Source of the DNA: a virus
Strand: one strand, 5' to 3'
Virus record (IMG/VR): IMGVR_UViG_3300028800_000323
Coordinates: 1 to 22,928 of that record
DNA: 22,928 bases
Shown: positions 834 through 9,094 of the stretch, piece by piece
Numbering within the stretch: position 1 is the stretch's first letter
Layout of the letters: each line of letters begins with the position of its first letter
Notes under the pieces: generated by a model
Databases searched by the model: none
Told to the model about the DNA's origin: nothing
Seen by the model: only the letters and a program-made list of their open reading frames with translations
Made by a program: the position numbers and the translations under genes

Positions 834-1322
834 ATGGCACGCAAAACGATCAGGACCGCCGATTGGCAACGTCTAGCCAACGCCATGCGTGACAGCCGAG
901 AGCGCGCCGACCTAACCCGGCCCGCGTTCGCTATCGCCTCCGGGGTCAGTGAATCCACCGTGTACGACGTCGAGCACGCCCGCGAATGGCCGCGCGGCAT
1001 CACCGCTTCAATCCGACGCATGGCCTACACGTTGGGTTGGCCTGACGGATGGGTAGAAGCCCTAGTCGAAGGACGCCAGCAATATGCGCCCGAAGGGCCC
1101 GTCCGGGTAGGCCCTTCGGCCCTCCGAACAGGGACACCCGAAGGCATACAGTCCGGACGTACTGACCTAGAGAACCTATCGGAGTGGATTGGTCGTGGGG
1201 GCGTGCCTTACCGGAAGATACCGACCTCCGAGATTCTGAGGCTCATAAGCACATTGACGGCAATACTTGCCGAGCGCCAGGTCGCTAACGAGCCCGTGAG
1301 TTCAGCGCCGCTAGAGCCCTAA
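834..1322 (+). CDS. HTH (XRE-like) transcriptional regulator, probable immunity repressor
   Basis: A 162-aa protein with an N-terminal helix-turn-helix of the XRE/Cro-CI type at residues about 5-65. The scaffold reads RLANAMRDSRERADLTRPAF, then ASGVSESTVYDVEHAREWP, the recognition helix followed by the loop. The C-terminal half (from about residue 105) has a helical segment TSEILRLISTLTAILAE that could dimerise. There is no LexA-type Ser/Lys autoprotease domain, so induction would not be by simple RecA-stimulated self-cleavage. It is transcribed away from xis, and its last 38 bases overlap the 3' end of int on the other strand. Its position between xis and int, as the only clear DNA-binding regulator in the window, makes it the likeliest ligand of the GGTACC-centred operators. 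That link is inference. Confidence 0.75.
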   Translation: MARKTIRTADWQRLANAMRDSRERADLTRPAFAIASGVSESTVYDVEHAREWPRGITASIRRMAYTLGWPDGWVEALVEGRQQYAPEGPVRVGPSALRTGTPEGIQSGRTDLENLSEWIGRGGVPYRKIPTSEILRLISTLTAILAERQVANEPVSSAPLEP

Positions 1323-2394
1323 GGACCTGCTCGTCAGACTCGCGCATCAAGTGGCCGTAAACGTTGATAGTGGTGGTGATCGACTCGTGGCCGAGCCTCG
1401 CTTGGATCGTCGGCAACGGGACACCGGCCGCGATCAACCACGACGCGTGAGTGTGCCGCAAGTCGTGAATACGGGTACGGCGCCCAATGGCCGCGTCACA
1501 GGCCGGGCCGTAGTGGTCCATAAACGTCGACCTCAGGAGTTGCCCGCCGCGAGGACCTGGAAAGATGAGAGCGTCGGCGGGCTTGCCCTCGACAACGGCG
1601 CGCAGAACTTCGACCGTCTCGGGGTCGAGTGCGATGGTTCGCCGCGACTTGCGGGACTTCGGTACGCCGAGATAGTAGACGCCGCCCGTCGCGCCACGTT
1701 TCCACGCCCTGTGTACGGTCAGTGTCGGCCGGTCCCCGTCGAGGTCAATATCGGCGACACGTAACGCGGTGACCTCGCCCCACCGGAGGCCCGTCCGCGC
1801 GAGCACGATAGGCAACGGCTTGAGAACGTCGGGAGTCATGACGGACACTACCTTGGACAGTTCCGAGGGCGTCAGAATCGACCACGCGGCCGTTGTGCGC
1901 CCGGCGTCCGAACGTGGCACCCGGACACCCGCGCACGGATTCATGCCGAGCCTACCGGCGTGCACAGCCTCGGCGAATCCGGCCGACAAGAGGGCCCGAT
2001 GGTTCGAGAGTGTCTTGGGCGCCACGATGGTCTGCTGCCACGTCACCCACTGCCGGAAGTCGTCACGGGTCACGGCCGCTAACGGGAGCGCGCCGAGCGG
2101 CGCCACCTTCACATGCTGCGCGACGATCCGTTTGTATGCGGCCCGCGTCGAGTCCTCTAGCGCCGTGAGGTTGTCGACGTACTCGCCGAGCCACGCGGCC
2201 ACAGTCTGCCCGCCGACGATCTCGCCGGGCCCGTCGAAGTGGTCGAGGACTTGCTCGCGGGTGACGCGCCTCGAATGTGACACAACCCAACCCATGACCC
2301 GCCTAGCCTCGGCCGGATCGGTTACCTCGACGGCCTGCCACGCGCCGTCCCTGTGCCCGCCGTACCGCCAACGCACCCGATTACGTGTGACCAT
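1285..2394 (-). CDS. int: Tyrosine-family phage integrase
   Basis: A 369-aa site-specific recombinase, full length for the family. It has an N-terminal arm-binding region (about 1-60), a SAM-like core-binding domain (about 63-155; TVAAWLGEYVDNL, TLSNHRALLSAGFAEAV) and a C-terminal catalytic domain (about 172-360). All expected catalytic residues are visible: R204 in TGLRWGE, K246 in VPKSRKS, H310 and R313 in HDLRH, H336 in LGH and the nucleophile Y346 in VYGHL. The ATG at 2394 is preferred to an upstream start at 2556 because a -10-like TAATGT ends 7 bases before it, the same geometry as the apparently leaderless gene at 4492. Its tail overlaps the repressor gene convergently (1285-1322) with no terminator between them. 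It should integrate the phage at attP, probably in the adjacent noncoding stretch. Confidence 0.95.
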   Translation of the reverse strand: MVTRNRVRWRYGGHRDGAWQAVEVTDPAEARRVMGWVVSHSRRVTREQVLDHFDGPGEIVGGQTVAAWLGEYVDNLTALEDSTRAAYKRIVAQHVKVAPLGALPLAAVTRDDFRQWVTWQQTIVAPKTLSNHRALLSAGFAEAVHAGRLGMNPCAGVRVPRSDAGRTTAAWSILTPSELSKVVSVMTPDVLKPLPIVLARTGLRWGEVTALRVADIDLDGDRPTLTVHRAWKRGATGGVYYLGVPKSRKSRRTIALDPETVEVLRAVVEGKPADALIFPGPRGGQLLRSTFMDHYGPACDAAIGRRTRIHDLRHTHASWLIAAGVPLPTIQARLGHESITTTINVYGHLMRESDEQVLRALAALNSRAR

Positions 2395-2411
2395 AGGGCA
2401 CACATTACCCG
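2395..2411 (-). promoter_or_regulatory. int: Probable int -10 element, leaderless start
   Basis: On the minus strand TAATGT (2402-2407) matches the actinobacterial -10 pattern TANNNT and is followed by 7 bases and the int ATG at 2394. No good -35 is visible at 16-18 bases upstream. The element lies inside an 11-base sequence, CACATTACCCG (plus strand, 2401-2411), that is repeated at 2614-2624, so it may also be a protein-binding site. Confidence 0.45.
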
Positions 2412-2613
2412 CTCGGGCCCGGTTTAGTGGGCCCGCCGCGCCCCGATTACAGCCGAGTTCGGGACTTCTCGGCAGAGACGCGCTAACTACTCCCCCGCGT
2501 CCCCTAAGTCCCTGACCTGCGACTTCCTTGATCGTTTCTCGTAATCGGTCACACATTGGTCAAACGGGGCGCCGTTTCCGGTAACCGGGTGGTTCCGTCG
2601 TCGGCGGGATCGG

Positions 2614-2723: not shown

Positions 2724-2930
2724 ATGGGCCCGAAAATCGCTCGGATGCTCAACTGCATTGACCCGCTAACGCCGGACCAGCTAGTAACCCGCGTCCAGTT
2801 TGCCCGCGCCGAGCTTGCCGACATGTGCGGCTTCGAGCACGACTACGACCGCAAGCGCGCCGCCCTCGTCGAGTACGAGCGCCGCCTAGCCCTCTATGGG
2901 TGGGCGGTCCCCGAGGACGTGACGCCGTGA
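2724..2930 (+). CDS. Hypothetical small protein, 68 aa, first gene of the accessory operon
   Basis: Starts at ATG 2724 with GGAAGG 7 bases upstream. An in-frame ATG at 2697 is rejected because it overlaps the -10 element. The protein is largely helical: TPDQLVTRVQFARAELADMCGF and YDRKRAALVEYERRLALYG look like two amphipathic helices that could pair as a helical hairpin. It has a single cysteine pair-free core and no membrane segment. The stop overlaps the next gene's GTG by 4 bases. I do not recognise the family. As promoter-proximal gene of the cassette it should be the most strongly transcribed of the set. Confidence 0.8.
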   Translation: MGPKIARMLNCIDPLTPDQLVTRVQFARAELADMCGFEHDYDRKRAALVEYERRLALYGWAVPEDVTP

Positions 2931-3097
2931 CCCGCGTAGCGAAGTGCTCAAGGTGCGAGGTATGGACGGATACCCATTGGTGGCCGTCCTCGACGCCGCG
3001 TGATCGTTACGGCCGCGTTGCCGTCGACAAAGACCGCTACGACGGCCCTCTTTATTGCTCCGAGACCTGCCGGGACGCCGCCGAGGCGAAGCCGTGA
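2927..3097 (+). CDS. Small putative zinc-finger protein, 56 aa
   Basis: The GTG at 2927 overlaps the previous stop in a GTGA junction. The N-terminus carries CSRC (residues 7-10) and the C-terminus CSETC (residues about 44-48). Together they give a CxxC...CxxxC arrangement that fits a small zinc ribbon or treble clef. The middle is aromatic and charged (WTDTHWWPS, RYGRVAVDKDRYDG). Proteins of this type occur in many actinophage accessory operons and may bind nucleic acid or a protein partner, but no specific function is known to me. The frame is supported by coupled overlaps at both ends. Confidence 0.75.
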   Translation: MTRVAKCSRCEVWTDTHWWPSSTPRDRYGRVAVDKDRYDGPLYCSETCRDAAEAKP

Positions 3098-3189
3098 ACG
3101 CCAAGCCGCGCCCGTGGTGGGCGTACCTCGACAACCGCAAAACCGCCGAACGCATCGCCACCTATTGGGCAGGGAAGGAAACCCCGTGA
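3094..3189 (+). CDS. Very small ORF, 31 aa, inside the coupled operon
   Basis: The GTG at 3094 overlaps the previous stop, and its TGA (3187-3189) overlaps the next gene's GTG at 3186, so it fills the otherwise unexplained 90 bases between two coupled genes. The 31 residues are basic and aromatic (KPRPWWAYLDNRKTAE, RIATYWAGK), with no known motif. It could be a genuine microprotein or a leader whose translation couples its neighbours. The context supports it more than the sequence does. Confidence 0.55.
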   Translation: MNAKPRPWWAYLDNRKTAERIATYWAGKETP

Positions 3190-3476
3190 TCTTGACCCGC
3201 GTAAGTCACAGCCGCGCACGCATCCTCGCCGCACTCGAACACAGCATCGGCCCGTGGGACGGCCTCGACGTCCCCGAGATCGTCGCCGACCTCCGCGCAT
3301 GGGAACCGCGCCTCGTGGCCGTAATCAGCCCTAGCGACGTCGCTAACTACCTCGCCGCGCCGGTCACACCGCAGGCACACAACGCCCGCCCGTGGCCCGC
3401 GCCGCGCCACTCGTGGCCCGTCGCCCCAAGTTGGCCCTACCGGCTTTGCAACAAGCGCCCCGAGGTCGCGCGATGA
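3186..3476 (+). CDS. Hypothetical protein, 96 aa
   Basis: The GTG at 3186 sits in a GTGA overlap, and the stop overlaps the following ATG. A longer upstream reading of this frame exists but would overlap the two preceding genes. The first 60 residues look like a compact helical domain: SRARILAALEHSIG, VPEIVADLRAWEPRLVAVI and SPSDVANYLAA, reminiscent of a winged-helix layout such as those in small phage regulators, with SPSDVANYL as a possible recognition helix. The last 30 residues are proline/tryptophan-rich and probably disordered. The family is not recognised. A DNA-binding role is a weak inference. Confidence 0.75.
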   Translation: MILTRVSHSRARILAALEHSIGPWDGLDVPEIVADLRAWEPRLVAVISPSDVANYLAAPVTPQAHNARPWPAPRHSWPVAPSWPYRLCNKRPEVAR

Positions 3477-3670
3477 CCGCCGAGGTACGCCTCAACAGGG
3501 GCGACAGGGTGCACGTCAAGACGCCGCAACTTCGCGGTTGGGGCACGGTCAAACAATGGTCGATAACCGAACAAGGCGTCACGTACCGGGTCCGCATGGA
3601 CAACGGGGCGGGCGGGTGGGTCCTCGCGTCCGCGATCCGCACGCCGGACCAAATGGAGCGTGCCGCGTGA
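3473..3670 (+). CDS. Small SH3/KOW-like protein, 65 aa
   Basis: ATG 3473 overlaps the previous stop (ATGA), and its TGA overlaps the next GTG. The sequence alternates beta strands: GDRVHVKTPQLRGWGTVKQW, then VTYRVRMDNGAGGWVLASAI. The RGWGTV and WVLASAI segments resemble the small SH3-like or KOW-like barrels used by many short phage and bacterial proteins to bind nucleic acid or peptides. There are no catalytic residues or membrane segments. The fold assignment is by eye and the function is unknown. Confidence 0.75.
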   Translation: MTAEVRLNRGDRVHVKTPQLRGWGTVKQWSITEQGVTYRVRMDNGAGGWVLASAIRTPDQMERAA

Positions 3671-4056
3671 TCGTGTACCGGCTTGCCCATCCCGCGTCAC
3701 ATGCCTACGTGTCGAAGGTCCCCCTCGGGCCTTACGCGTTTGTGCCCTACGGTTACGCCTCCGACGACGACCTCGACGCAATCGAGGCGATGGCCGCCGC
3801 ACACAACGTTGACCCCGGATACCACCCCGGACCTCACCAAGACGACGGCCTCGACGACCGGCCTAACTCGTGGGAGTTCTGCGGCTTCGCTACCCTCCGC
3901 GACTTGACCCGATGGTTCGAGGGCTACTTGCGGCCACTCGGCCGGGCAGGCTTCCGGCTCTACATGTACGACGTGCCGCCGTCGAAAGTCAGGGTCGGCC
4001 GCCGTCAGGTCCTCGCGGATTTGTCGAGCCTCGCGCCGTTGCAGCGTGCCGCATGA
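3667..4056 (+). CDS. Hypothetical protein, 129 aa
   Basis: The GTG at 3667 is coupled to the previous gene by a GTGA overlap, and the stop overlaps the next ATG. The protein is acidic and aromatic. The first half (VIVYRLAHPASHAYVSKVPLGPY, then DDDLDAIEAMAAAHN) leads to a well-structured second half: SWEFCGFATLRDLTRWFEGYL, LGRAGFRLYMYDVP and RVGRRQVLADLS. The middle FCGFATLRDLTRWF reads like a pocket motif found in small actinophage proteins of unknown role, but I cannot name the family. There is no signal peptide, so it is cytoplasmic. Confidence 0.8.
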   Translation: MIVYRLAHPASHAYVSKVPLGPYAFVPYGYASDDDLDAIEAMAAAHNVDPGYHPGPHQDDGLDDRPNSWEFCGFATLRDLTRWFEGYLRPLGRAGFRLYMYDVPPSKVRVGRRQVLADLSSLAPLQRAA

Positions 4057-4421
4057 GGCGCCCCGGCAAGCGCCAACCACCCGAGCCCGCCGAGCCCGTC
4101 CTCCAAGCGTGGTGCCCGGCACACGGCCCCAAGAACCTACCCGCGCACGAGTACGTCCTCCACCTAGTCGACCCGGCACCATTCTTCGAGTGGTGGTGTG
4201 ACGAGTGCCGCGACGTCATCACGCAACCGGCCGGAACGCAGGCCATCGACCTGTTGACCCGGCACGGCGCGGTCGTTGTCGACGACGACGCGGGGCCCGT
4301 AGTTGGTGAGCCCGTCCTCCTACACGTGTTCGACATGGCGCCGCCGCTTACCCTTGACGATGTGATCGACTTCGGGCTCGCTCTTGAACGGCTCGACGAC
4401 GTGGTGGCCGCCGTAAAGTGA
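4053..4421 (+). CDS. Hypothetical protein with Cys/His cluster, 122 aa
   Basis: ATG 4053 overlaps the previous stop (ATGA). This is the last gene before the second accessory promoter. After a basic, proline-rich N-terminus it has WCPAHG near residue 23 and WWCDECRD near residue 50. Together these give Cys, His and CxxC ligands that could bind one zinc. The C-terminal half is acidic with a regular helix (PPLTLDDVIDFGLALERLDDVVAAV) typical of a protein-interaction end. No enzyme motif is visible and the function is unknown. Confidence 0.8.
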   Translation: MRRPGKRQPPEPAEPVLQAWCPAHGPKNLPAHEYVLHLVDPAPFFEWWCDECRDVITQPAGTQAIDLLTRHGAVVVDDDAGPVVGEPVLLHVFDMAPPLTLDDVIDFGLALERLDDVVAAVK

Positions 4422-4438
4422 CGAACGCCACACATGCG

Positions 4439-4491
4439 CCGGGTGCCGAAAACCCTTGACGTCGGTACCCGGCACGCCTAGATTGGTTGCC
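4439..4491 (+). promoter_or_regulatory. Second accessory promoter, leaderless, with two operator-like sites
   Basis: GGGTGCCG (4441-4448), a degenerate copy of the CGGTACCG operator, is followed by exactly 7 bases, -35 TTGACG (4456-4461), a 17-base spacer and -10 TAGATT (4479-4484). The ATG at 4492 begins 7 bases after the -10, so the transcript is expected to start at or within a base of the start codon. A second operator-like GGTACCCG (4464-4471) lies in the spacer, 22 bases from the first. The promoter fit is good and the regulation is inferred from the shared layout with the other two promoters. Confidence 0.75.
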
Positions 4492-4728
4492 ATGACCACC
4501 GATACCGCCAAGACCCACCGCATTACGTGGTGGGTTTACGCGGGCTCAGGCGAGAGCCGCGAGCGTATCCGCCACACCGCGTCAATGCGCGGCCAATGGG
4601 GATACGACGCGACGTGCGCGTGCGGGTGGGATTCTCGGACGGGTGGCGCCCTGCGCCGCTACGTCGAGTCCGAGGTCTGGTTCCACAAGTTCACCGCGCT
4701 CGACAACTCAGAGGACGTGACCCGATGA
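4492..4728 (+). CDS. Small actinophage-type CACGW protein, 78 aa
   Basis: ATG 4492 follows the -10 element by 7 bases, so the mRNA is probably leaderless. An upstream TTG at 4456 is part of the -35 and is rejected. The protein begins with a beta-rich THRITWWVYAG and then has CACGWDSRTGGALRRYV (residues about 44-60). This is a CxCGW element seen in many short actinobacterial and actinophage proteins, followed by a helix and VWFHKF. Cys and His there could hold a metal. The function is unknown. The stop overlaps the next ATG. Confidence 0.8.
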   Translation: MTTDTAKTHRITWWVYAGSGESRERIRHTASMRGQWGYDATCACGWDSRTGGALRRYVESEVWFHKFTALDNSEDVTR

Positions 4729-5294
4729 CCACCACGACGACCGCGATCCTTGCTAGCGACTTCTCGGCCTCGACCCTCGACACCAACCGGCACGAGTGGA
4801 ACCTCGGCACGATGCGCCACGTTATCGCCGCACTCAACGGCCAACCCGTTGCCATCATCTGCGACAAGCGAACCGGCTTCGCCGAGGTCGGCGTCCGGCT
4901 CACGTCCTGCTTCGACGGCGGCCCGAGCCGTGGCCCGCGCGTCACTATCGAGCGCGACGACGAGGACGGCGTGACCCGCTCGACGACGTATTGGCTACCG
5001 TCCATCGGCGAGGCAATCATCCCCGTAACGCACGACACGTTGCGCGGCGCCAAGTGGGACGCCCTCGACTCGTACCGCGACGAATCGAGCGCCGCTATCG
5101 CGCTCGTGCGTGACCGGCACCCGGAATGGAGCTATGGCAAGTGGGAGGCCCGGCCATTTGACGCCGACGTGCAAGTGACCTACGAGGCGCAACGCGAAGG
5201 GGCGGGCCCACGGTTCGCTTACGACAAGGTGAGCCTTAGCGAGATCGTGGCCGACGTGACGGGTAAGCAACTCCGGCCGAGCGTGACGCGATGA
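4725..5294 (+). CDS. Hypothetical protein, 189 aa
   Basis: ATG 4725 is in an ATGA overlap with the previous stop, and the TGA overlaps the ATG of the next gene. This is the largest cytoplasmic protein of the cassette. It starts with a threonine run (TTTTTAIL). The body is mixed alpha/beta: MRHVIAALNGQPVAIICDK, AEVGVRLTS, a GPRVTIERDDEDGVTRSTTYW stretch, and a C-terminal YDKVSLSEIVADVTGKQL helix. There is no membrane segment, signal peptide or catalytic signature I can name. Its size and fixed position directly before the 56-aa and protease genes make it worth tracking as a possible partner, but that is context only. Confidence 0.8.
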   Translation: MTTTTTAILASDFSASTLDTNRHEWNLGTMRHVIAALNGQPVAIICDKRTGFAEVGVRLTSCFDGGPSRGPRVTIERDDEDGVTRSTTYWLPSIGEAIIPVTHDTLRGAKWDALDSYRDESSAAIALVRDRHPEWSYGKWEARPFDADVQVTYEAQREGAGPRFAYDKVSLSEIVADVTGKQLRPSVTR

Positions 5295-5461
5295 TCGTCA
5301 AGGTTAGCTTCTCGGTCGACGTCGACCCCGACGCGTGGGCCCTCAACTACGGGACCAGCACCGACCCGGCCGCCGTCCGCGCCGACGTGCGGACGTGGTG
5401 CGAGAACGGCTGCTATGCGGAACTCCGCGAGCTTGGACTACTAAGGACCGTGACCCCGTGA
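5291..5461 (+). CDS. Small actinophage-type protein, 56 aa, coupled to the protease gene
   Basis: ATG 5291 overlaps the previous stop by 4 bases, and its TGA (5459-5461) overlaps the protease GTG at 5458. The sequence MIVKVSFSVDVDPDAWALNYG followed by DPAAVRADVRTWCENG and LRELGLL matches a pattern I recall from very common short mycobacteriophage-like proteins: a beta strand, then DPxxWxxxYG, then a helix. Their function is not known. It is too short to stand out on length alone, but the coupled overlaps on both sides support it well. Confidence 0.75.
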   Translation: MIVKVSFSVDVDPDAWALNYGTSTDPAAVRADVRTWCENGCYAELRELGLLRTVTP

Positions 5462-6108
5462 TTGGCCGGGTTAGTCTTGCCCTCGCCGTAGCGACTACCG
5501 CCGCGTTCGGGATCGTCACCGGAGGATCAGCGCGGGCCGACGAGCCGCCATGTCAAACCATCGGGTACCAAATCAACGTCCCCGAGATTAACCCCAACTG
5601 GACACAGGCGAACGGCGTCCCGTCCGTGGACGTTATGGCCGTCCGTGACGCCGTGGCCGTGTTCGAGATGCACGTCGGATTCACCTACCGATATGACGGC
5701 ATGACCTCGTGGGTTGCGTCCTACGGTAACGTGGCGGCACAGCCCGACGACCTAGAGATAAGCGTCGTGGTCGACGATCAGGACTTCAATACCCCGCGCC
5801 TAGAACACGCCGCCGCCTTCGAGTGGAGCGTGAACGGTAAGTCCGCGATTATGATGCGTTGGGCGTCCGTCCTCAACTCAGGCATCGACGGCACTAACGC
5901 ATGGCAGGGTGGCAACTCCCTCTTTACCACGACCGAACACGAACTCGGCCACACGCTCGGGCTTATGCACTCGGCACTACCCACCGACATTATGTACGGT
6001 GGGGGCCTCAATACCTCGACGCCGATGTTCTACTCGGTCAACGATCAACGGAACCTCGCCGCCGTGTCGTGCCACCCTTACGGCGTAGTAACGGATACCG
6101 CGCCCTAG
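5458..6108 (+). CDS. Secreted metzincin-type (matrixin-like) zinc metalloprotease
   Basis: A 216-aa protein with GTG start at 5458, coupled to the 56-aa gene. Longer readings of the frame would swallow that gene and remove the signal peptide from the N-terminus. Residues 1-27 form a Sec signal peptide: a short basic start, a hydrophobic core LALAVATTAAFGIV and an A-R-A cleavage site before D28. The catalytic helix is HELGHTLGLMH (161-171), an exact HExxHxxGxxH with three zinc ligands and catalytic E162. DIMY (177-180) supplies the Met-turn, M179. Both are hallmarks of metzincins, closest to matrixins (M10). Only two cysteines remain in the mature part (C32 and one near the C-terminus), a possible disulfide. 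There is no prodomain with a cysteine switch, so it may be made active. It is expected outside the host cell or at its envelope. The target is unknown. Lysogenic conversion, receptor processing or exclusion are options. Confidence 0.88.
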   Translation: MIGRVSLALAVATTAAFGIVTGGSARADEPPCQTIGYQINVPEINPNWTQANGVPSVDVMAVRDAVAVFEMHVGFTYRYDGMTSWVASYGNVAAQPDDLEISVVVDDQDFNTPRLEHAAAFEWSVNGKSAIMMRWASVLNSGIDGTNAWQGGNSLFTTTEHELGHTLGLMHSALPTDIMYGGGLNTSTPMFYSVNDQRNLAAVSCHPYGVVTDTAP

Positions 6109-6125
6109 CGCCCAACGCAAACAAG

Positions 6126-6165
6126 AGGCCACCCGGTCAGGGTCAAAACCCCGGCCGGGTGGCCT
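6126..6165. terminator. Bidirectional hairpin terminator between convergent operons
   Basis: A perfect 11-bp stem AGGCCACCCGG (6126-6136) pairs with CCGGGTGGCCT (6155-6165). A further 4-bp inner stem GGGT/ACCC (6140-6143 and 6148-6151) is capped by CAAA. It lies between the stops of the rightward protease gene (6108) and the leftward late operon (6174). No long T-run is present on either side, which is usual for actinobacterial hairpin terminators. Confidence 0.85.
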
Positions 6166-6173
6166 ACGTTTGG

Positions 6174-6542: not shown

Positions 6543-6901
6543 GCCGCCGCCCGCACGTAGGTAACCACGAGATCGGCCAACGGCTCACGTGTCACGAAAT
6601 CGAACACGGGTAGGCCCAACTCCTGCGCCGTCAGAATCTCAAGGCGTGCGCCGCGTGACTTCTCCCAACCCGGCAGGACGAACACTAGATCGGCGTCGAG
6701 GACGTGCCCGACGTCGAGCCGCATGTAGGCCGCCCGGCCGCCCGGATGATCTGACCGGCCGTCGAAGTTCCGGGCAGGGTTGATAACGTCGACCTCGCCC
6801 TCGGTCGTGAGCGCCGCCTCGGCATCGTTGAACGCCGCATAGTTGTATCCGGGGTAACCCGTCATCGGGCCGCTTATGTAGGCCCGCCCTTGATACCTCA
6901 C
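6539..6901 (-). CDS. Nucleoside 2-deoxyribosyltransferase-like protein (DUF4406 type), 120 aa
   Basis: The GTG at 6901 overlaps the stop of the phosphoesterase gene. The opening RAYISGPMTGYPGYNYAAF is the signature of the DUF4406 family, a flavodoxin-like fold related to nucleoside 2-deoxyribosyltransferases. It is followed by the ribose-binding region VDVINPAR and then RLDVGHVLDADLVFVLPGWEKSRGARLEI, which holds the conserved Asp and the SxGARxE-type loop. Related enzymes exchange or hydrolyse nucleobases on (deoxy)nucleosides or nucleotides. In phages its substrate is undetermined. It is coupled to the downstream dNTP-hydrolase-like gene, which suggests a shared nucleotide-pool function. Confidence 0.8.
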   Translation of the reverse strand: MRYQGRAYISGPMTGYPGYNYAAFNDAEAALTTEGEVDVINPARNFDGRSDHPGGRAAYMRLDVGHVLDADLVFVLPGWEKSRGARLEILTAQELGLPVFDFVTREPLADLVVTYVRAAA

Positions 6902-7761
6902 GCCGCTAGCCCCAACTCGCGCCGGAACGTCGACAACGGCACGCCCTCATATCTGCGGCACAGATAGTCGAGGGTGACCTCCATCAACGAGTACGAGCCG
7001 TGTTCGACCTCGTGACACACGAGGACACCACGCCAATGCGCGTTACCCTGCGGGCCCTTATAGTCCTCGTCGTGCAAGTAGCAGGCGCCCGCGATCAACG
7101 CACGTTGCGAACGTGCCTCGCCCGTCTCCGGGTCGACGACGAACCGTAGAGCCGTGTCATAGGTCTGTTGGTGGCCCATCGTGAACGAGTGCCCAACCTG
7201 CTTGAGCCGCGTTATCGGCATCCCACCCAACGGCTTACCCGTCATGTGGTTAACCCAATAGTGCGCGTACCCGATGCCGTCCAAATAGAACGGCTCTAGG
7301 AACGGGTGCACAGTGAAACCGTGCGCCGCATAGTTGAGCATGTCGAGCGATAGCAGGCCGTCGAGTTTCGCGTCCAACTCACACGCCCGCGTGATCCGGT
7401 CCTCATGGTTCCCGAGCGCGATATGGAGGTCAGGCCGCCAGAACTTGTGCTTGTCGACACGGGCCTTCGCGTTGAAATCCTCCATCGGCTTGCACAGCCG
7501 ATCAAACCCCGCGTTAGCTGCCGCAAGATCGGCGTGAACGCGCCGCCCCTCCATCGCCTTCTTACCGAAGTCGTAAGACGAGAGCGAGGGCATGTCCGCG
7601 TGGTCCCCAAGGTGGATAATCCGCACGTTGGGTCGGCCCGCGAAACGGTCGACGATGTACTGCCCGATCCATCCAAGGTGATCGGTAGGCACGCCGGGTT
7701 TAACCTGCGTGTCGGGTATCACAACATGGATAACGCCGGGGCCTAGTGCCCGATGTTTCAC
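6898..7761 (-). CDS. Calcineurin-like metallophosphoesterase, 287 aa
   Basis: The GTG at 7761 is in a GTGA overlap with the upstream peptidase gene. Metal-binding motifs are in the family order: IPDTQ (residues 15-19, D17 with Gln in the usual His position), HLGDHAD (50-56, D53), ALGNHED (115-121, N118 and H119) and a later MGHQQTYD with the distal His. This phosphoesterase group includes nucleases, nucleotidases and cyclic-nucleotide phosphodiesterases. The DTQ variant is common in phage members. A long insert (about 58-105) of charged helices precedes GNHE. The substrate cannot be read from sequence. A DNA end-processing or nucleotide-degrading role fits its place before two nucleotide-related genes. 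Confidence 0.85.
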   Translation of the reverse strand: MKHRALGPGVIHVVIPDTQVKPGVPTDHLGWIGQYIVDRFAGRPNVRIIHLGDHADMPSLSSYDFGKKAMEGRRVHADLAAANAGFDRLCKPMEDFNAKARVDKHKFWRPDLHIALGNHEDRITRACELDAKLDGLLSLDMLNYAAHGFTVHPFLEPFYLDGIGYAHYWVNHMTGKPLGGMPITRLKQVGHSFTMGHQQTYDTALRFVVDPETGEARSQRALIAGACYLHDEDYKGPQGNAHWRGVLVCHEVEHGSYSLMEVTLDYLCRRYEGVPLSTFRRELGLAA

Positions 7762-8276
7762 GCTGCCTCTTTCGCCGTCGTAGTCGGCGGAAACACACGC
7801 CGCAACACACGCCGCGCCAAATCCTTAGGGGTCACGAACGCGGGCGAGTCCCTGTCACACGTCCACCCGGGCGCATCAATGCCGCCCGCGTAGGCGACAA
7901 GCGCCGAGCATATGACCGTGCGCGGATTCTCGGCCCACTCGACGAGACGGCGCGGCCGGATATGAACCGCGAGCAACGCGAGCGCGAGAATGTCGAGCCA
8001 CCCATACGGGCGCCCCTTAAACGCCAACGCGCGAGCGACAATCCGCCCGCGCGCCGCGTCGTCGAGTTCGTCCTCGCAGAAGATGAGGTCACATCCCGCG
8101 TACTCGCGCAGGTTGCCGAGACGCGCGCCGCCCGGTTCAGCCTCGATCATGTCGAGGTCATCGTTCAGGACGACGCCGCAGTGATCCCACACTGACCATG
8201 TGCCGAGCTTCACCGCGTCCATGTAGACGCCGCCCGTTGACACCACGAAATAGGACCCAGGTCGGGGCAGGTTCAT
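7758..8276 (-). CDS. Permuted papain-fold (NlpC/P60-related) peptidase or amidase, 172 aa
   Basis: ATG 8276 overlaps the endolysin stop (ATGA). The catalytic residues occur in permuted order: His32 in WDHCGVVLND, an acidic IEAEPGGAR (E45), then Cys123 in TVICSALVAYA near the C-terminal third. This is the layout of YiiX/YaeF-type permuted NlpC/P60 proteins rather than classical NlpC/P60, where Cys precedes His. These proteins cleave amide or ester bonds in peptidoglycan peptides or lipids. A hydrophobic stretch ILALALLAVHI (about 96-106) may be a buried helix or a membrane contact. Next to a GH25 lysin it is likely a second cell-wall or envelope enzyme. A lipid target is possible. Confidence 0.72.
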   Translation of the reverse strand: MNLPRPGSYFVVSTGGVYMDAVKLGTWSVWDHCGVVLNDDLDMIEAEPGGARLGNLREYAGCDLIFCEDELDDAARGRIVARALAFKGRPYGWLDILALALLAVHIRPRRLVEWAENPRTVICSALVAYAGGIDAPGWTCDRDSPAFVTPKDLARRVLRRVFPPTTTAKEAA

Positions 8277-9094
8277 GCGTAGGGGATGGTGGCGAGTTGC
8301 GCCGCCGTGACAATCTTGGGGGTCGGATCGGTGACGACGCCGAGACTGACGAGAAGCGTGTTCTCGCCGGGTGCCACGGTGCGCCGCTTGAATCCGTCAT
8401 ACAGGAACCACGGGCCGGGCTCGGCCGTGGTAATGAACTTGACCGCCATATCGTCGTTTCCTTCGTGAGGTTGTGTCGACACAGGGGCAGGCGCTGGTTG
8501 CGGCGCAGGTACGGCCACCGTGAGGCCCGCGAGCCTGCGCAGGTCGTCGAGCGTGCCGCCGAACGTGTCAACGTCCAGGGTTCCAAGCGTGCCAATCACG
8601 CGCGCCGTTTGAGTGACCTCGGCGGGCGTCACCGGATCGAGCGGCACCCATCCCGCATACATGCCGCGTAACGCCGTGAACGGGTCTGAGAGCCACCAAG
8701 AGTGATAGGTGTACAGGAGAGGGCGCAGGCCCGTACCGGAGGCCACGAGGCTAAGCCACGTGCCTGCCCATGCGGCACGCTGCGTCAACGTCCTGCCGTC
8801 GTGCACGTCCTCAAGGTCGAGGGCGAGAAGCCCCCGCCGTGAGCCGAGGACGGCCAAGAAATGCGCCGCCTCGGCCTGCGCCGTGTTCGCCGAGTTGTGC
8901 GCGAAATGGTAAGCGCCCGGCATCAACCCGGCCACACAGATAGCGTCCCAATCCGCGCCGAACCCGGCATCGTTGTATGTCACGCCCTGCGTTGCCTTAC
9001 GTACCGCAAAGGCTATGCCGTCCTCGGCGCGAGCCTTGACCCAATCGACGTGCCCGTTGCCGGAATACACGTCGAGGCCGAGCGTTACCGTCAC
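8273..9094 (-). CDS. GH25 muramidase endolysin with C-terminal binding domain
   Basis: A 273-aa protein whose GTG start at 9094 overlaps the upstream stop (GTGA). Residues 1-190 are a glycoside hydrolase family 25 domain: GLDVYSG (D8), AFAVRKATQG, GAYHFAH and the catalytic LDLED (D93, E95), followed by LLYTYHSWW. GH25 enzymes cut the MurNAc-GlcNAc bond of peptidoglycan. A Pro/Ala-rich linker (PAPQPAPAPVS) leads to a short C-terminal domain of about 58 residues starting MAVKFITTAEPGPWF, presumably for cell-wall binding. There is no signal peptide, so release needs a holin or similar. The linker region also carries a strong internal ribosome binding site and ATG (8447-8464), annotated separately. 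Confidence 0.92.
   Translation of the reverse strand: MTVTLGLDVYSGNGHVDWVKARAEDGIAFAVRKATQGVTYNDAGFGADWDAICVAGLMPGAYHFAHNSANTAQAEAAHFLAVLGSRRGLLALDLEDVHDGRTLTQRAAWAGTWLSLVASGTGLRPLLYTYHSWWLSDPFTALRGMYAGWVPLDPVTPAEVTQTARVIGTLGTLDVDTFGGTLDDLRRLAGLTVAVPAPQPAPAPVSTQPHEGNDDMAVKFITTAEPGPWFLYDGFKRRTVAPGENTLLVSLGVVTDPTPKIVTAAQLATIPYA
8447..8464 (-). promoter_or_regulatory. Internal ribosome binding site and in-frame ATG in the endolysin gene
   Basis: On the minus strand GAAGGAAA (8457-8464) is followed by 7 bases and ATG (8447-8449), in frame with the endolysin. Translation from here would give a separate 58-aa C-terminal domain (8273-8449) beginning MAVKFITT. The site falls exactly at the end of the linker. 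Other phage lysins are known to make such extra binding subunits from internal starts. Confidence 0.5.

Follow-up and report, generated by a model that had tools for sequence, protein, structure and literature searches.

In Listeria, the phage-derived protein Mtz is a secreted metzincin that cleaves the TIMP-like lipoprotein Tim (PMC8235301). Together, Mtz and Tim sensitise the bacterium to phage lysis and to cell-wall agents; they raised virion release about five-fold and permitted lysis where it is normally hampered, an effect that required the TIMP-like lipoprotein partner (PMC8235301). This is the one worked example of lysogenic conversion by surface proteolysis that we found. Here we describe another phage locus with a metzincin gene, located in a virus record of 22,928 bases; the entire record is referred to as the window, and all coordinates are given within it (Table 1).

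Table 1. Features of the matrixin locus and of its surroundings in the window
Feature	Position	Strand	Basis
HTH repressor-like regulator	834..1322	+	HTH_31; phrog_2328 transcriptional repressor
Tyrosine integrase	1285..2556	-	Pfam Phage_integrase 4.2e-21
Chain of about ten small upstream genes, several with 4-nt overlaps	2727..5461	+	ORF list
Gene for 56-aa cytoplasmic protein; TGA stop overlapping the matrixin start codon (GTGA)	5291..5461	+	ORF/sequence
Ribosome-binding site (AAGGA), 10 nt ahead of the GTG	5443..5447	+	sequence
Gene for predicted exported matrixin (metzincin) protease, 216 aa	5458..6108	+	ORF; Pfam PF00413 above cut-off; MMP catalytic domains as fold matches in the PDB
Sec-type signal peptide, residues 1-27, predicted cleavage between ARA and D	5458..5538	+	inspection
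Cys32, first of only two Cys	5551..5553	+	sequence
HELGHTLGLMH zinc-binding/catalytic motif (H161, E162, H165, G168, H171)	5938..5970	+	motif scan
DIMY Met-turn (M179)	5986..5997	+	sequence
Cys205, second of only two Cys	6070..6072	+	sequence
Strong hairpin between convergent operons (arms 6126-6143/6148-6165)	6118..6172		-40.3 kcal/mol, z -5.8
GH25 endolysin, in convergent late operon	8273..9094	-	Pfam

The Sec signal with its ARA site, the HExxHxxGxxH motif and the DIMY Met-turn, on which the sequence-only reading of this DNA had built, were all recovered in the open reading frame, the signal by inspection. The window contains a single copy of the zinc motif and 100 dinucleotide shuffles contain none; the chance expectation is about 0.003 per six-frame window, or about 3e-5 when the Met of the Met-turn is added. 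Residues H161, E162, G164, H165, G168, H171 and M179 are invariant across an alignment of 60 phage matrixins, and E162, previously named as the catalytic residue, is indeed the catalytic Glu. By inspection, the signal peptide (MIGRVSLALAVATTAAFGIVTGGSARA, followed by DEPPC) shows one Arg, an h-region rich in Ala, and the ARA site before D. Residues 3-21 are a predicted helix within this region, whose Kyte-Doolittle peak (2.07 over 12 residues) lies slightly below the strict cut of 2.2 applied in our survey, and export of the protein by this Sec signal is likely. The catalytic region begins, by reading, right after the signal peptide, and the mature part comprises 189 aa, compared with 152-170 aa for the matrixin catalytic domains among the PDB matches, a size consistent with the lack of a prodomain. 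The earlier claim that there is no prodomain is supported. The two Cys residues sit at opposite ends of the domain, and one may guess at a disulfide between them.

Comparison with the M10 families, which the sequence-only reading had proposed as a check, placed the protein in the Pfam family Peptidase_M10 (Matrixin, PF00413; E 9.1e-7, 29.3 bits versus a curated cut-off of 24), the best-scoring of all metzincin models. This match spans only profile positions 102-133, i.e. the active-site half, and the best PDB sequence matches, MMP-12 chains, extend across 33 residues. Structure prediction with AlphaFold2 gave a pLDDT of 66.5 and a pTM of 0.61 when the 60 phage matrixins were used, and 63.7 and 0.66 with 35 trimmed sequences; the active-site helix region is the best-predicted part. 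In Foldseek searches of the PDB both models ranked MMP catalytic domains first with a probability of 1.00 (TM about 0.4-0.6 at pLDDT 64-67). The matches among viral structures included an M10 peptidase of an uncultured Caudovirales phage, a matrixin (Maribacter phage Colly_1), a Zn protease (Lactobacillus phage 3-521) and insect-virus MMPs. The predicted fold would therefore be nearest to MMP catalytic domains, as far as models of modest confidence can tell. It might be argued that the motif arose by chance or belongs to a different HExxH fold (SprT or ImmA, for instance), given that overall identity to any known protein is low and that the Pfam match is restricted to the active-site half. We consider this highly improbable: the extended motif with its Met-turn goes well beyond chance, the Matrixin cut-off is passed, and SprT-like entries fall far below the MMPs that lead both fold searches. 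The assignment of the putative enzyme to the matrixins (metzincins) is well supported by these sequence comparisons.

The matrixin gene is the last of a tightly coupled operon. The sequence-only reading had tied its GTG start to the 56-aa gene; the two genes do share 4 nt, and with the AAGGA site ahead of it the GTG at 5458 is the likely start. Neither a signal peptide, nor a lipobox, nor a transmembrane (TM) segment was found in any upstream protein of the operon, and Pfam gave no match above the cut-off for the nine scanned. It had been suggested that these small proteins include an inhibitor or chaperone of the exported enzyme. This idea was not supported: as products lacking an export signal, none of them is expected to meet an exported matrixin, and an exported partner within the operon was rejected as a candidate. 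The hairpin downstream of the matrixin gene is a probable two-way terminator. A scan for sigma-70-type promoters gave matches at chance level, and neither a promoter nor a repressor site was identified.

The window also encodes an excisionase, a capsid protein and a tape-measure protein, and the presence of a tyrosine integrase indicates that the phage is temperate. The capsid protein is 40% identical to that of Propionibacterium phage PFR1, which is also distantly related in its prohead protease, integrase, tape measure and endolysin, and the nearest relatives of the tape measure are found in Gordonia phages. The PFR1-like capsid combined with a Gordonia-phage-like tape measure suggests that the host probably belongs to the Actinobacteria. 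The matrixin operon is located between the integrase and lysis genes, on the strand opposite the late genes, and runs away from the integrase gene. In PFR1 the gene order is endolysin and holin, three opposite-strand accessory genes, and integrase, so that the matrixin operon fills the interval matching these three genes. No PF00413 match occurs in the phages closest in capsid (49-50% identity), whose records may be incomplete, and the matrixin gene is, judging by this distribution, an accessory gene outside the core modules. The sequence-only description is supported in these points: a matrixin gene of a temperate phage, last in a tightly coupled operon, for a protein that has an export signal but no prodomain.

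Several further observations concern PFR1 and other parts of the window. PFR1 gp27 (L102:22514-22984), annotated as superinfection exclusion, carries a lipoprotein-type (lipobox-like) signal and lies between the integrase and repressor genes. A metallophosphoesterase encoded in the window (6898-7761, - strand) is about 49% identical to a protein of a Rheinheimera phage and 47% to one of a Pseudomonas phage, whereas the capsid has actinophage affinity. The adjacent gene (7758-8276, - strand; 172 aa), which adjoins the endolysin gene, matches phrog_1128, enoyl-CoA hydratase-like, a label that looks doubtful. No tRNA gene that could mark an attachment site is present within the window, and queries with the endolysin and with a 189-aa upstream protein retrieved no related viral loci.

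Neither phages nor viral or genome contigs yielded a close relative of the window matrixin. Three weak matches in a plasmid collection were confined to the motif, and the pattern EHELGH...DIMYG had no match in bacterial genomes. The matrixin motif with the spacing of the window protein was present in 59 IMG/VR stretches, and a second strict pattern in 38, one of them common to the first set, giving together about 96 stretches. All 38 tested records of the first set passed the Pfam cut-off, and 54 of the 60 sequences in the alignment, which contains that of the window, matched Matrixin at E 0.001. Using a crude hydropathy cut of 2.2, we detected an N-terminal hydrophobic segment in 58 of the 72 matrixins with a readable start, compared with 50 of 255 genes in their neighbourhood (Fisher p 2e-21); 17 matrixins are lipoprotein-like. 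Judging by these N-termini, export looks like a general trait of phage matrixins. Tail, portal and integrase genes are among their neighbours. A common neighbourhood was considered and rejected, as no PHROG or Pfam family recurred in more than two of the 114 neighbours. Phage matrixins are thus a diverse set, spread broadly but sparsely over environmental phages, some of the surveyed contigs possibly being misclassified bacterial DNA. The earlier statement that such proteases are rarely carried by phages needs qualifying, in view of these approximately 96 stretches, of the matrixin-like folds in isolate phages and of the Listeria prophage metzincin (PMC8235301). PHROGs contains no family for phage matrixins, and they are therefore probably annotated as hypothetical in most phage studies.

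Several observations concern individual surveyed proteins. A clade of metzincins of about 194 aa (L064, L068, L069, L071-L074, L077, L081, L085, L088, L089, L091 and L099) has a near-identical active-site region, VLEHELGHALGFLHYNKINHLMNEKW; a query of the phage collection with one of them (L068) gave no match. A 240-kb viral contig carries a tandem pair of matrixin genes (L003:5488-6676) and a third PF00413 match elsewhere. The N-termini of nine matrixins (L022, L028, L029, L037, L040, L043, L046, L057 and L076) look more like a TM anchor than like a signal that is cleaved off. In two others (L008:2155-2916 and L044:1085-1825) an N-terminal stretch is similar to a peptidoglycan-binding repeat, and one member of the 60-sequence alignment (A1) matches PG_binding_1.

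We favour the view, with a probability of roughly 0.45, that the matrixin gene is a lysogenic-conversion (moron-type) gene, whose product would cleave proteins of the host surface or extracellular proteins nearby. The gene with its motifs, family, likely start, operon position and accessory status is what the analysis shows; what follows on its product's export and activity, on the timing of expression, and on substrate and benefit is inferred. The zinc-dependent enzyme would be exported by the host Sec machinery and its signal peptide removed after ARA27. Having no prodomain, it would become active as soon as it is folded and zinc-bound outside the membrane, where it would cut proteins of the phage-carrying host, be they wall-associated, on the surface or extracellular nearby. 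The most likely benefit would be a changed surface of the lysogen, e.g. removal or alteration of a protein used by later phages, and superinfection exclusion is a plausible consequence of such cleavage. This view is supported by the intact catalytic residues, the MMP fold matches and the position in the integrase-lysis interval, as well as by the lack of a matrixin in the nearest capsid relatives and the excess of export segments among phage matrixins. By analogy, the PFR1 accessory genes of the corresponding interval and its superinfection-exclusion gene near the integrase may point in the same direction. Moreover, the Listeria prophage metzincin acts on a surface lipoprotein and changes cell-wall behaviour (PMC8235301). 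Against it, the operon could instead be early lytic.

Another role to be considered is that of a helper in lysis and release, in which the protease would weaken wall-associated or S-layer-like proteins and thereby aid the endolysin. The effects of Mtz/Tim on virion release and hampered lysis in Listeria (PMC8235301) are a precedent, and the end of the matrixin gene adjoins the late operon with the GH25 endolysin. However, the lysis genes lie on the other strand, beyond the strong hairpin, so that the matrixin gene is not co-transcribed with them; moreover, the window operon offers no exported counterpart of the lipoprotein that the Listeria effect needed. With its strand opposite to the late genes, a terminator-like hairpin behind it and a place on the integrase side, the gene looks more like one for lysogenic conversion or early functions than one for lysis, and we regard the helper role as unlikely. 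We find it distinctly unlikely that the lysogen's secreted protease is an auxiliary feeding or niche enzyme, digesting environmental proteins or the peptides of competitors. Small exported matrixins do occur in many environmental phages in unrelated gene contexts, and a chitosanase gene of a soil virus, which plays no part in replication, is reported to yield an active enzyme (PMC9485262). Yet many of the phage relatives look anchored, either as lipoproteins or through a TM segment, which suggests action at the cell surface, and no genes linked to peptide uptake or secretion were recognised nearby. That the gene is a recent passenger from a bacterial genome, useless to the phage, would agree with the lack of close relatives in the searched phage, plasmid, viral and genome collections and with its absence from the nearest capsid relatives. 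It is nevertheless improbable, as the catalytic residues, Met-turn, signal peptide, ribosome-binding site and coupled start are all intact, and the G+C content of the gene (0.61; 0.76 at third codon positions) is near that of the window (0.64).

Returning to lysogenic conversion, if the matrixin is active outside the cell, the phage would through this gene edit its host's surface proteome by cleaving proteins. A broader proposal, which we put forward tentatively and consider rather unlikely, is that phages have repeatedly and independently acquired exported matrixins as a means to shave the surface of infected or lysogenic hosts, excluding rival phages or preparing release, the window protein being an actinophage version that acts without a lipoprotein partner of the Listeria type. 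This kind of enzyme is already known; what our analysis adds is the recurrence of exported matrixins across environmental phages.

Among known proteins, the matrixins of PF00413/MEROPS M10 (animal MMPs, bacterial karilysin) share with the window protein the zinc motif, the Met-turn spacing, a fold predicted with modest confidence and a signal peptide, at about 14-20% identity in fold alignments. By reading, it differs from animal-type MMPs in the absence of the Cys-switch prodomain (PRCGxPD), and lacks the segment with the structural Zn/Ca ligands (GDxHFDxxE-like), in place of which it has AFEWSVNGKSAIMMRW. The matrix metalloproteases of baculoviruses and entomopoxviruses are likewise virus-encoded proteins with an MMP-like catalytic domain, but they belong to eukaryotic viruses, are mostly larger and have no bacterial link. 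The small IMG/VR matrixins (e.g. L012, L027, L040, L044 and L086) resemble the window protein in size (about 150-280 aa), in the matrixin motif and, mostly, in an N-terminal export segment; clear similarity is confined to the active-site region, and they occur in other phage groups and gene contexts, several being lipoprotein-like or TM-anchored. Listeria Mtz has the Met-turn AIMLD instead of DIMY, and the gene for its TIMP-like lipoprotein lies immediately downstream, where the window gene is followed by the hairpin and the convergent operon; unlike Mtz/Tim, the window gene has no directly adjoining CI/Cro pair. Both are nevertheless signal-bearing, prophage-associated metzincins encoded by accessory genes in the lysis-side region, and a Gram-positive host, Listeria in the case of Mtz and a probable one for the window phage, would be a further likeness.
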